Origin: Actinomycetota bacterium
GTDB lineage: Bacteria > Actinomycetota > Actinomycetes > Nanopelagicales > Nanopelagicaceae
Length of the DNA stretch: 49,693 nt
Reading direction: 5' to 3'
Assembly (NCBI GenBank): GCA_010030895.1
Contig: RHBS01000002.1
Span: forward strand, 1 to 49,693
The position numbers were made by a program, and so were the translations under genes. Shown piece after piece: positions 33,330 through 36,641 of this stretch. A model generated the notes under the pieces. The model saw nothing but the letters and a program-made list of their open reading frames with translations, did no database searches and was not told where the DNA came from. Each line of letters opens with the position of its first letter. The stretch's first letter is position 1.

Positions 33330-34436
33330 ATGAAGCAACAGCTACCAGGTGGAGTTACTCGCCAAAATCTTAAACTTTCTGATGGTAGGGATATTTATTA
33401 TTACGATACTAAGGATATTGATCGCAATGCAGTTGATAGCAGAGCTGATCAAGCTCAGCCTGGCATCGGTCACTTACGCTTAGATCTACTAGTAAATGAG
33501 TGGGTCGTAGTTGCATCCCATAGACAGCACCGGGTGTTTTTACCACCTAAAGAGTTATGCCCTCTTTGTGCATCAACTAAGGAAAAACAAACAGAGATTC
33601 CAGATAGTGATTATGAGGTGGCGGTTTTTACAAATCGAGCACCGGCATTAACCGCTCCAAACCCAAATTGGAAATTGCCTCAAATCAATGGAGTTGAGAC
33701 ACCAAATCCAGATGCTGCTGGTGCCTGTGAAGTTGTTTGCTATACCTCAGATCATGGAACAAGTTTTGCCAAGTTACCGATTAAGCAAATTAGGGCAGTG
33801 CTTGAGGCATGGAAAAATCGAGATGCCGAGTTATCAAAATTGCCATATATCCAACATATTTTTCCCTTTGAAAATCGGGGTGAGGAGGTTGGAGTAACAA
33901 TTTCCCACCCACATGGTCAAATTTATGCCTACTCATTTATTCCACCAAGAGTAGAGCGGATGTTAAGTGCGGCTCAAGATTACTTAAAGCAAACCGGCCG
34001 AGTTCTACTAGATGATTTAATTAAGCGAGAAATCAAAGATGAAAAGCGAATAATTGCTCAAAATAGTGAATGGATTGCATATGTGCCATTTGCTGCTAGG
34101 TATCCATTTGAAATACATCTTGCCCCATTACGTAGTGTTGCTCGAATGAGTCAATTAGATGAAAAACAATCTGAGACATTTCCAGAAATTGCAAAGGAGA
34201 TCTTAACTCGCCTAGATGGAGTTTTTGGAATTGAGATGGCATACATTGCATCTTGGTATCAATCACCAGTAAATGTTGGAAGCGACTGCATGCGACTTCA
34301 TTGGCAAATAGTTTCTGTAAGACGCCAGCCTGGAAAATTAAAGTATCTCTCTGGCTCAGAATCTGCCATGGGAGCCTTTATTATGGATTTAGAGCCAGAG
34401 CAATCTGCAGATCAACTTCGACAAGTAAAATTGTAA
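33330..34436 (+). CDS. galT: Galactose-1-phosphate uridylyltransferase
   Basis: Leloir-pathway enzyme exchanging UMP between UDP-glucose and galactose 1-phosphate. 368 aa. The active-site HPHGQIYAYSFIPP with the nucleophilic His is near residue 200; Zn ligands fit CPLC near residue 85; the C-terminal HIH-type region fits FEIHLAPLRS and MRLHWQIV. No galK or galE is adjacent. Convergent with the ACT-domain gene with no gap. Confidence 0.92.
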   Translation: MKQQLPGGVTRQNLKLSDGRDIYYYDTKDIDRNAVDSRADQAQPGIGHLRLDLLVNEWVVVASHRQHRVFLPPKELCPLCASTKEKQTEIPDSDYEVAVFTNRAPALTAPNPNWKLPQINGVETPNPDAAGACEVVCYTSDHGTSFAKLPIKQIRAVLEAWKNRDAELSKLPYIQHIFPFENRGEEVGVTISHPHGQIYAYSFIPPRVERMLSAAQDYLKQTGRVLLDDLIKREIKDEKRIIAQNSEWIAYVPFAARYPFEIHLAPLRSVARMSQLDEKQSETFPEIAKEILTRLDGVFGIEMAYIASWYQSPVNVGSDCMRLHWQIVSVRRQPGKLKYLSGSESAMGAFIMDLEPEQSADQLRQVKL

Positions 34437-34676
34437 TTACTCAACTGGGGTAATTGAAATAACCTCAACCCCGCCAATTGAATTTAAAACATTAAGTAAA
34501 TCAGTTGGATCACTACCCGGTACTGCAATTGTGATGTCATCAATTCCTTTTCCGTTTTCGCTACGAAGAACTACTAGGCCACGAATATCTCCGCCGGCAA
34601 AACCAATCGCAGATGCCACCGCACCAAGGGAACCTGGTCGGTCTGGTAACGAGATTTGAACTCGATATAGCGCCAT
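34437..34676 (-). CDS. ACT-domain protein
   Basis: 79 aa, a single ACT domain: YRVQISLPDRPGSLGAVASA with the D-R-P-G-x-L ligand turn, then GLVVLRS and DDITIAVPG strands. Such proteins sense amino acids or act as regulatory subunits. Its ATG lies one base after the 3' end of tRNA-Asn, with no room for a ribosome-binding site and no TAnnnT box at the right distance. The mRNA is therefore probably made by tRNA 3'-end processing. Ligand unknown. Confidence 0.8.
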   Translation of the reverse strand: MALYRVQISLPDRPGSLGAVASAIGFAGGDIRGLVVLRSENGKGIDDITIAVPGSDPTDLLNVLNSIGGVEVISITPVE

Positions 34677-34677
34677 G

Positions 34678-34750
34678 CTCCCTGACTTGGACTCGAACCA
34701 AGAACCTGCCGGTTAACAGCCGGCTGCTCTGCCAATTGAGCTATCAGGGA
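34678..34750 (-). tRNA. tRNA-Asn (anticodon GTT)
   Basis: 73-nt cloverleaf. Acceptor TCCCTGA / TCAGGGA with discriminator G, D-arm with TAGCTCAATTGGCAGA, anticodon stem GCCGG/CCGGC with 7-nt loop CTGTTAA (GTT at 34715-34717), and T-arm with GGTTCGAGTCC. The 3' CCA is not encoded. The ACT-domain ATG begins 1 nt after the discriminator base. Confidence 0.95.
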
Positions 34751-34785
34751 ATACGTCAATCTTGTTTAAGGATTAGCGAGGGTAA

Positions 34786-34813
34786 ATAGTATCGAATAAA
34801 AGTTTGTGCTCAA
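34786..34813 (-). promoter_or_regulatory. Promoter of tRNA-Asn / ACT transcript
   Basis: Minus strand TTGAGC (34808-34813), 16-nt spacer, TACTAT (34786-34791). Transcription would start some 30 nt before the tRNA 5' end. It is the only credible promoter serving the ACT gene. Confidence 0.6.
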
Positions 34814-34832: not shown

Positions 34833-36641
34833 TTAACTCTCCCCTAGCGCCAACTCTTTTTGTACCCGACGGGCAGCCTCCATACCAACTAGTTTTGTAA
34901 AAATCTCTTGATACTGCGCTTCATTTTCAACCGGATTTAATCTCTGCAGTGTTGATTTGATCTCCGCAATTAATCTACTAAGCGCAACTTCACGAAGTCG
35001 AGCAAAGATACTAGTTATATACCGATCTGAAACCTCACCGTCAGTTCTAATTGGTTCAACAGTTAACTCAGTAATCAATGACTTTAATTCATCAGAATCT
35101 GCTTTATTAATTAGCTCTTGAATATTTAACTCACTTTGCTGATCAATTAAAACTCGTAGTTGGTTATAAAGTGGAAATGAAAAGGCCGCCGCTTCTAGAT
35201 CTACCCAGCTAGGTGCTAACTCTGGCATTTGTAATTTAACCTTTAACACCTCGCGCTCCAGCACTAAAATAGGATCAGTTAAATTCACCTTTGCTGGCGG
35301 TAGCCTCTCGATTGCACCTCCAGCTTTTTTAACGGCAGATGAAACTACATCTACCTCCATACCTAACCAGCCAGCTAGTAGTCGAACATACTCAGGCCTT
35401 AAGGAGGCATCCCGAATCTTTCCAATTAAAGGTGCGACTTGATTTAAGGCACCTACTCTTCCCTCAGCGGACTTAATATCATAATTTGCAATAACAGATT
35501 TGATTGCAAACTCAAACAATGGAACCCTCCGGGCAATTAAATTTCTTACCGCATCATCACCATGGGCCTGCCTTAATTCACATGGATCCATTCCATTTGG
35601 CTCAACTGCAACAAATGTTTGTGCGACAAACTTTTGATCATCTTCAAATGCTCTTAATGCTGCTTTTTGACCTGCAGCATCGCCATCAAAGGTAAAGATC
35701 ACCTCACCTCTAAATGCATCAGCATCCATAAGCAATCTTCGAATAATTCGGATATGTTCATCACCAAAAGCAGTTCCACAGGTGGCAACTGCTGTGGTGA
35801 CACCGGCTAGATGTGCCGCCATTACATCGGTATACCCTTCAACAATTACTACTTGACGATTTTTTGATATCTCTTTTTTAGCCATATCTAGGCCATATAA
35901 AATTTGATTCTTTTTATAGATAGGTGTCTCAGGAGAGTTTAGGTACTTAGGGCCTTGATCAACATCATCAGCTGCTAATTTTCTAGCGCCAAAACCAACT
36001 ACATCACCAGAAATATCCTTTACTGGCCAAATCAATCTATTTCGATATCGATCAATAGGACCTTTACTTCCCTCTTTGATCAAGCCCGCTAAAGTTAATT
36101 CTTCATCGGTAAAGCCTTGACCCTTTAACTGCTTATAGAGCCCATCCCACTCATCTGGCGCATATCCAACATTAAAATTTTTAGCAGCATCACGATCAAA
36201 GCCCCGTTTTGTTAAAAAATCCCGGCCGTGTTGGGCAGCTGGTAATTGAATTTGCTCCTGATAAAAAATAGCAGCTGCAGTATTGGCTGCAACTAATCTC
36301 GATCTATTAACTGATGGAGCAGAACTACTTCCGGAGGTTTCATACCTAAGTGTGTAACCAATTCGATCAGCTAAGCGTTCTACAGTTTCCATAAAGGTTA
36401 GATGCTCCAATTTCATAATAAAAGCAATTACATCCCCACCAACTTGGCAACCGAAACAGTGAAAAAAACCCTTACTTGGGGTTACATGAAAAGATGGTGA
36501 TTTTTCATCATGAAATGGGCATAGACCTTTTTTCTGACCACCGCCAGCATTTTTAAGCTGAACATAATCAGCAACTACATCATCAATTGGAGAGTGGTCG
36601 CGAACATATGCAACATCCTCATCCTTTATGCGCCCGGCCAT
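34833..36641 (-). CDS. dnaG: DNA primase
   Basis: Makes RNA primers at the replication fork. 602 aa. The N-terminal CHC2 zinc finger is CPFHDEKSPSFHV...FHCFGC (about residues 41-66); the TOPRIM core has VIVEGYTDVMA with catalytic Glu and FTFDGDAAGQKA with the metal Asp pair. The C-terminal third is the DnaB-binding region, less conserved. TAGGAT lies 6 nt before the ATG with no ribosome-binding site, suggesting a leaderless mRNA. Confidence 0.96.
   Translation of the reverse strand: MAGRIKDEDVAYVRDHSPIDDVVADYVQLKNAGGGQKKGLCPFHDEKSPSFHVTPSKGFFHCFGCQVGGDVIAFIMKLEHLTFMETVERLADRIGYTLRYETSGSSSAPSVNRSRLVAANTAAAIFYQEQIQLPAAQHGRDFLTKRGFDRDAAKNFNVGYAPDEWDGLYKQLKGQGFTDEELTLAGLIKEGSKGPIDRYRNRLIWPVKDISGDVVGFGARKLAADDVDQGPKYLNSPETPIYKKNQILYGLDMAKKEISKNRQVVIVEGYTDVMAAHLAGVTTAVATCGTAFGDEHIRIIRRLLMDADAFRGEVIFTFDGDAAGQKAALRAFEDDQKFVAQTFVAVEPNGMDPCELRQAHGDDAVRNLIARRVPLFEFAIKSVIANYDIKSAEGRVGALNQVAPLIGKIRDASLRPEYVRLLAGWLGMEVDVVSSAVKKAGGAIERLPPAKVNLTDPILVLEREVLKVKLQMPELAPSWVDLEAAAFSFPLYNQLRVLIDQQSELNIQELINKADSDELKSLITELTVEPIRTDGEVSDRYITSIFARLREVALSRLIAEIKSTLQRLNPVENEAQYQEIFTKLVGMEAARRVQKELALGES

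Follow-up and report, generated by a model that had tools for sequence, protein, structure and literature searches.

A tRNA-Asn gene one base ahead of an ACT-domain start codon suggests tRNA punctuation in the bacterial genus Nanopelagicus

Introduction

How does a protein-coding gene obtain a translatable mRNA when its start codon lies a single base behind the end of a tRNA gene? The question is raised by a 49,693-nucleotide stretch of DNA, hereafter the window, from a genome of the Candidatus Nanopelagicus type (G000; 1.04 Mb in 106 contigs), where a tRNA-Asn gene and a gene for a stand-alone ACT-domain protein meet in this way. A first-pass annotation of the window proposed that tRNA processing creates a leaderless mRNA here, that an RNase Z-type enzyme cuts after the discriminator base and leaves C-AUG as the 5' end, and that a possible amino-acid sensor is thereby coupled to tRNA-Asn maturation. 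We examined the junction in the window, across the genus, in relatives outside it and at other genes.

Results

The junction in the window

The minus-strand order is dnaG, an 82-base gap, tRNA-Asn, a single C and the ACT gene. The features are as follows.

34833..36641, minus strand: dnaG, lying next upstream (Pfam DnaG domains)
34786..34813, minus strand: candidate promoter of the tRNA-ACT transcript (conserved block, alignment of 19 genus sequences)
34751..34785, minus strand: 5' leader of the tRNA precursor, from the -10 to the tRNA, with a short inverted repeat (alignment)
34678..34750, minus strand: tRNA-Asn, anticodon GTT, 73 nt to discriminator G (ARAGORN, Rfam RF00005, sequence)
34677, minus strand: C74, which alone separates the tRNA from the start codon; a cut is proposed 3' of it (sequence)
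34437..34676, minus strand: stand-alone ACT-domain protein of 79 aa, its ATG directly after C74 (ORF, Pfam PF01842)
33330..34436, plus strand: galT-like gene, convergent, its end adjoining the ACT stop (Pfam, ORFs)

ARAGORN places tRNA-Asn(GUU) at 34750..34677 and the Rfam tRNA model at 34750..34678 (both minus strand). The discriminator is G34678, followed by C34677 and by the ATG of the ACT reading frame (34676..34674, minus strand); the sequence reads G-C-ATG, and CCA is absent from the tRNA-Asn gene. This agrees with the first-pass annotation that the start codon lies one base after the discriminator and that CCA is not encoded. The Pfam ACT model (PF01842) matches residues 4-68 of 79 (E 2.5e-8; full-length score 34 bits against a cut-off of 27), so a start later than this ATG is not plausible. 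A scan of the window sequence before the ACT ATG found neither a TAnnnT -10 hexamer nor a usable Shine-Dalgarno sequence, which bears out the earlier remark that the junction has no room for a ribosome-binding site and no -10 box at leaderless distance. At the other end of the ACT gene, it and the galT-like gene lie tail to tail at 34436/34437 with zero bases between them.

Conservation within the genus and the promoter of tRNA-Asn

Our alignment covers 28 genus loci (19 distinct sequences), every one of which reads discriminator G-C-ATG, and the ACT protein has 79-80 residues and the same start in all members. The spacing between tRNA and ACT gene is fixed while the dnaG-tRNA gap ranges from 79 to 86 nt; a junction that stays constant in 28 loci beside a varying gap excludes chance. 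Nearly all genus sequences keep a TTGAG...TACTAT/TAGTAT block in the latter gap. In the window this block provides a candidate promoter with a -35 element TTGAGC (34813..34808), a 16-nt spacer and a -10 element TACTAT (34791..34786). Although a generic sigma-70 scan gave no site over threshold, conservation points to the block as the sole plausible promoter, as the first-pass annotation had supposed in placing the only promoter upstream of the tRNA. In the complete genus genome G011 tRNA-Asn occurs once among the 37 tRNA genes examined (of 38 RF00005 matches), and every tRNA-Asn transcript should therefore carry the ACT gene too.

In most genus members the eye picks out an inverted repeat just 5' of tRNA-Asn, and three sequences seem to show compensatory changes. 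RNAalifold, however, predicts zero pairs, and the idea of a conserved leader hairpin (34751-34785) was rejected.

The ACT gene in relatives outside the genus

In loci from outside the genus, 20-2300 nt lie between tRNA and ACT gene. A TAnnnT -10 hexamer begins 11-13 nt before the ACT ATG in 59 of the 62 distinct upstream sequences from these relatives, and a Shine-Dalgarno sequence was found before the ATG in none of the 62. A -10 hexamer at such a distance, without a Shine-Dalgarno sequence, is the known layout of leaderless promoters in Actinobacteria. What the relatives have is thus a spacer with a leaderless promoter, and not the spacer with a ribosome-binding site that would have spoken against the first-pass reading. 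Since their ACT genes are leaderless by promoter layout, the ACT mRNA was leaderless before the tRNA arrived. Relatives with the tRNA at 20-39 nt from the ACT gene keep the -10 box between the two (TATGAT-tcggcc-ATG in locus L060, TAGACT in L079). Among the compared ACT loci, the box is lost and replaced by the tRNA end only in Nanopelagicus, where tRNA-Asn seems, from this comparison, to have taken over from the gene's own promoter.

C74 and the place of the 3' cut

The base between tRNA and start codon is not peculiar to this locus. All 128 tRNA genes examined in four actinobacterial genomes (G011, 37/37; G001, 37/37; G287, 40/40; G279, 14/14) encode C74, although no more than roughly one quarter to one half of these genes encode CCA, and the 19 distinct genus sequences all have C at the position of base 34677. 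A report of universal C74 in actinobacterial tRNA genes was not found in the open literature searched. The available text of two studies (PMC3848588, PMC4681348) reports from 5'-end mapping that P. acnes and S. coelicolor split an encoded CCA between its two Cs, and that P. acnes is without an obvious tRNase Z; for the CCA-less tRNAs of S. coelicolor, that of the second (PMC4681348) puts the cuts no more than a few nucleotides from the 3' end.

RNase Z (TIGR02651) had no match over the cut-off in 25 genus genomes, three of them single-contig and 99-100% complete. The metallo-beta-lactamase proteins that match it weakly resemble, by inspection, RNase J, ComEC and glyoxalase-type hydrolases. Because C74 is universal, because cuts between the Cs occur in P. 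acnes and S. coelicolor and because RNase Z was not found in the genus, we place the cut after C74 as likelier than after the discriminator; the mRNA would then begin at AUG, not C-AUG. Cuts between the Cs have been recorded for tRNAs that encode CCA, and we infer one for the CCA-less tRNA-Asn. The universal C74 could alternatively serve RNase P in recognizing the RCC end.

The RNase Z-type cut of the first-pass annotation, after the discriminator and with an mRNA starting C-AUG, appears unlikely on these data. It is the way in which the CCA-less tRNAs of B. subtilis mature, full-length RNase Z-like proteins (245-284 bits) are present in part of the class (families f3, f4, f17, f19 and f28 only), and a one-base leader still counts as leaderless; however, besides lacking a match over the cut-off in the 25 genus genomes, it leaves C74 in every examined tRNA gene unexplained. 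What stands of the original proposal is its core: tRNA 3' maturation offers the best explanation of the putative 5' end, with the predicted cut moved from the discriminator to the far side of C74.

The same junction at other genes

Among the 37 tRNA 3' flanks of G011, three genes start exactly one base after the discriminator (+1) and none at 0 or 2-19. These are an ACT gene after tRNA-Asn, a response regulator-ANTAR gene (PdtaR-like) after tRNA-Leu(CAA) and a homocysteine S-methyltransferase gene after tRNA-Met. In G001 two genes lie at +1, and further ORFs begin at +8 to +20 behind tRNAs. Sites fitting a T-arm-plus-CRTG pattern were found in 24 of 25 genus genomes and in all 61 genomes of the order; class-wide raw counts of the pattern were excluded from the statistics, because GC-rich coding sequence fits it by chance.

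Of the 42 +1 junctions that ARAGORN verified in the order, 40 lead into a long ORF or reach the contig end, the two exceptions being RTGs after tRNA-Asp and tRNA-Ile without a long ORF. As a control, verified tRNAs with an RTG at +2 lead into an ORF of at least 60 residues in 3 of 18 cases. Fisher's p for +1 versus +2 is about 2e-9 by locus, which is optimistic as the loci are related, and 3e-5 by distinct tRNA-gene pair, with pair counts entered by hand. About 16 unrelated genes are joined to tRNAs by N73-C-ATG/GTG in the order. The domains recognized at +1 ORFs, namely response regulator-ANTAR, homocysteine S-methyltransferase and those of the first eight entries below, mark them as real genes. 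Further +1 partners are listed here.

Leucyl-tRNA synthetase (LeuRS), GTG start: one base after tRNA-Ala(GGC), several genomes (L349, L372)
Cyclophilin: +1 after tRNA-Ala (TGC), in the order
CDP-alcohol phosphatidyltransferase: +1 after tRNA-Pro, in the order
RNase_T/oligoribonuclease-like exonuclease: +1 after tRNA-Arg (TCT), in the order
Sbt_1: +1 after tRNA-Arg (TCG), in the order
EamA: +1 after tRNA-Lys, in the order
GDPD: +1 after tRNA-Leu (CAG), in the order
DoxD-Rieske: +1 after tRNA-Asn, in the order
Short-chain dehydrogenase-like protein: +1 junction, in the order, named by inspection
glmU: +1 after tRNA-Gln, in another actinobacterial family (f36; L216, L223, L226), named by inspection
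NIF3-like gene: +1 after tRNA-Val, in another actinobacterial family, named by inspection
DedA-like gene: +1 after tRNA-Leu(TAG), in another actinobacterial family, named by inspection

These counts bear on plain genome compaction, by which the spacer was simply deleted and the gene is either expressed at a low level or translated from RNA that is left uncut or trimmed at random. The genomes are indeed streamlined (about 1.2 Mb), and the +8 to +20 starts of G001 would fit such a process, but the excess sits exactly at +1 and not over short distances generally. The genus-wide fixed spacing, the presence among the partners of leucyl-tRNA synthetase, which must be expressed, and the occurrence of the junction in larger actinobacterial genomes (tRNA-Gln to glmU) likewise make compaction a very improbable account.

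Thirty distinct 20-mers preceding +1 start codons contain no TAnnnT at leaderless distance and no Shine-Dalgarno sequence at usable distance. This leaves hardly any credence for a cryptic promoter within the tRNA gene from which a leaderless ACT transcript would begin at the ATG: the relatives do have a -10 at such a distance, but the hexamer is absent from the required place in all thirty sequences, and the constraints on tRNA sequence leave little room for one. Several +1 junctions exchange ATG and GTG at the same position, as leaderless genes of actinobacteria commonly do. To judge by the range of genes behind it, the junction seems to be a general means of obtaining a leaderless mRNA for a gene that lacks its own promoter. 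Because it serves many unrelated genes, a special regulatory coupling of ACT and tRNA-Asn is rejected as the general explanation, and the specific link of an amino-acid sensor to tRNA-Asn drawn in the first-pass annotation is unsupported.

The tRNA-Leu(CAA)-C-ATG junction to the PdtaR-like ANTAR regulator is widespread in the family (L166:523, L277), and the window's own genome also has a tRNA-Leu site (G000:C28:986-1011). Elsewhere in the class most copies of the PdtaR-like gene are oriented divergently to tRNA-Leu(CAA), and a strict test recognized a leaderless -10 at 18 of 27 loci; in this the gene resembles ACT.

In Nanopelagicus species one tRNA-Met end adjoins three different genes, all by N73-C-RTG (L199, L192, L195): those for homocysteine S-methyltransferase, a 151-aa membrane-like protein and a P450-like protein. 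On sequence evidence, the tRNA-Met end is a repeatedly reused site in the genus. A functional tie between tRNA-Met and homocysteine S-methyltransferase was considered and rejected, as the same tRNA-Met adjoins unrelated genes in other species of the genus (L192, L195). The contigs titled Bifidobacterium breve (L037, L040) hold Nanopelagicus-type sequence at the tRNA-Asn/ACT locus, and their titles are probably wrong.

Discussion

The arrangement at the ACT gene is, in our judgement, quite probably a case of bacterial tRNA punctuation, in which excision of the tRNA frees a leaderless ACT mRNA. RNA polymerase would start at the tRNA-Asn promoter and carry tRNA and ACT gene in one transcript. RNase P would form the 5' end of the tRNA, and some endonuclease would cut on the 3' side of C74, in the manner of the actinobacterial cut between the Cs. 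A nucleotidyltransferase would complete the tRNA to CCA, and the downstream piece, 5'-p-AUG..., would serve as a leaderless mRNA on which ribosomes start directly. As to its origin, an ancestral ACT gene with a leaderless promoter may have undergone a deletion in Nanopelagicus that put the tRNA in the promoter's place and kept the mode of translation.

Some properties of such an mRNA can be predicted. Its supply would follow transcription of the tRNA. According to work cited in the available text of a review (PMC9031893), leaderless translation in E. coli requires a phosphate at the 5' terminus. The 5'-monophosphate ACT mRNA may be short-lived, since the genus has an RNase J-like protein.

With more reserve, we favor extending this reading to Actinobacteria as a whole. 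An endonuclease would cut behind the encoded C74, genes placed there would get by without promoter and ribosome-binding site, and their output would follow transcription and maturation of the tRNA; many unrelated genes, including those for an aminoacyl-tRNA synthetase and an RNase, would have moved in independently.

If the 5' ends are confirmed, tRNA processing would be a second bacterial route to leaderless mRNAs beside promoters (and the disputed MazF cut), and tRNA punctuation would exist outside organelles. The junction also makes it testable which enzyme matures actinobacterial tRNA 3' ends and why C74 is always encoded. If the proposal is true, gene annotation and models of regulation would change for bacteria that rank among the most abundant in fresh water, with mRNA supply following a tRNA promoter. 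The first-pass annotation knew of no description of such an arrangement, and we too found no bacterial precedent: the open literature searched has tRNA punctuation for organelles only and leaderless mRNAs from promoters or MazF only, most subscription journals lying outside the search, so that a precedent may exist.

Several known systems share parts of the proposed mechanism. In C. glutamicum eight tRNAs are cotranscribed with protein genes (PMC3890552), so that tRNA and protein gene share one transcript as proposed here; the exact N73-C74-start codon junction is not described in the available text of that report. The between-the-Cs cleavage of P. acnes and S. coelicolor would break the same predicted phosphodiester bond, after C74, and P. 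acnes resembles the genus in having no obvious tRNase Z, but in the available text of those studies the cleavage is reported for encoded CCA and is not linked to the making of mRNAs. The promoter-made leaderless mRNAs of C. glutamicum, mycobacteria, Streptomyces and P. acnes likewise have the start codon (ATG or GTG) at the 5' end and no Shine-Dalgarno sequence; their 5' end is set by a -10 box about seven bases upstream, whereas the one proposed here would come from RNA processing and bear a monophosphate. In the tRNA punctuation of animal mitochondria, excision of tRNAs frees mRNAs nearly without a 5' leader, and ribosomes start at the 5' end. Here the hosts are free-living bacteria and a minority of genes is involved, each behind a tRNA promoter, and the proposed cut falls after an encoded C74, whereas mitochondria cut after the discriminator by ELAC2/RNase Z.
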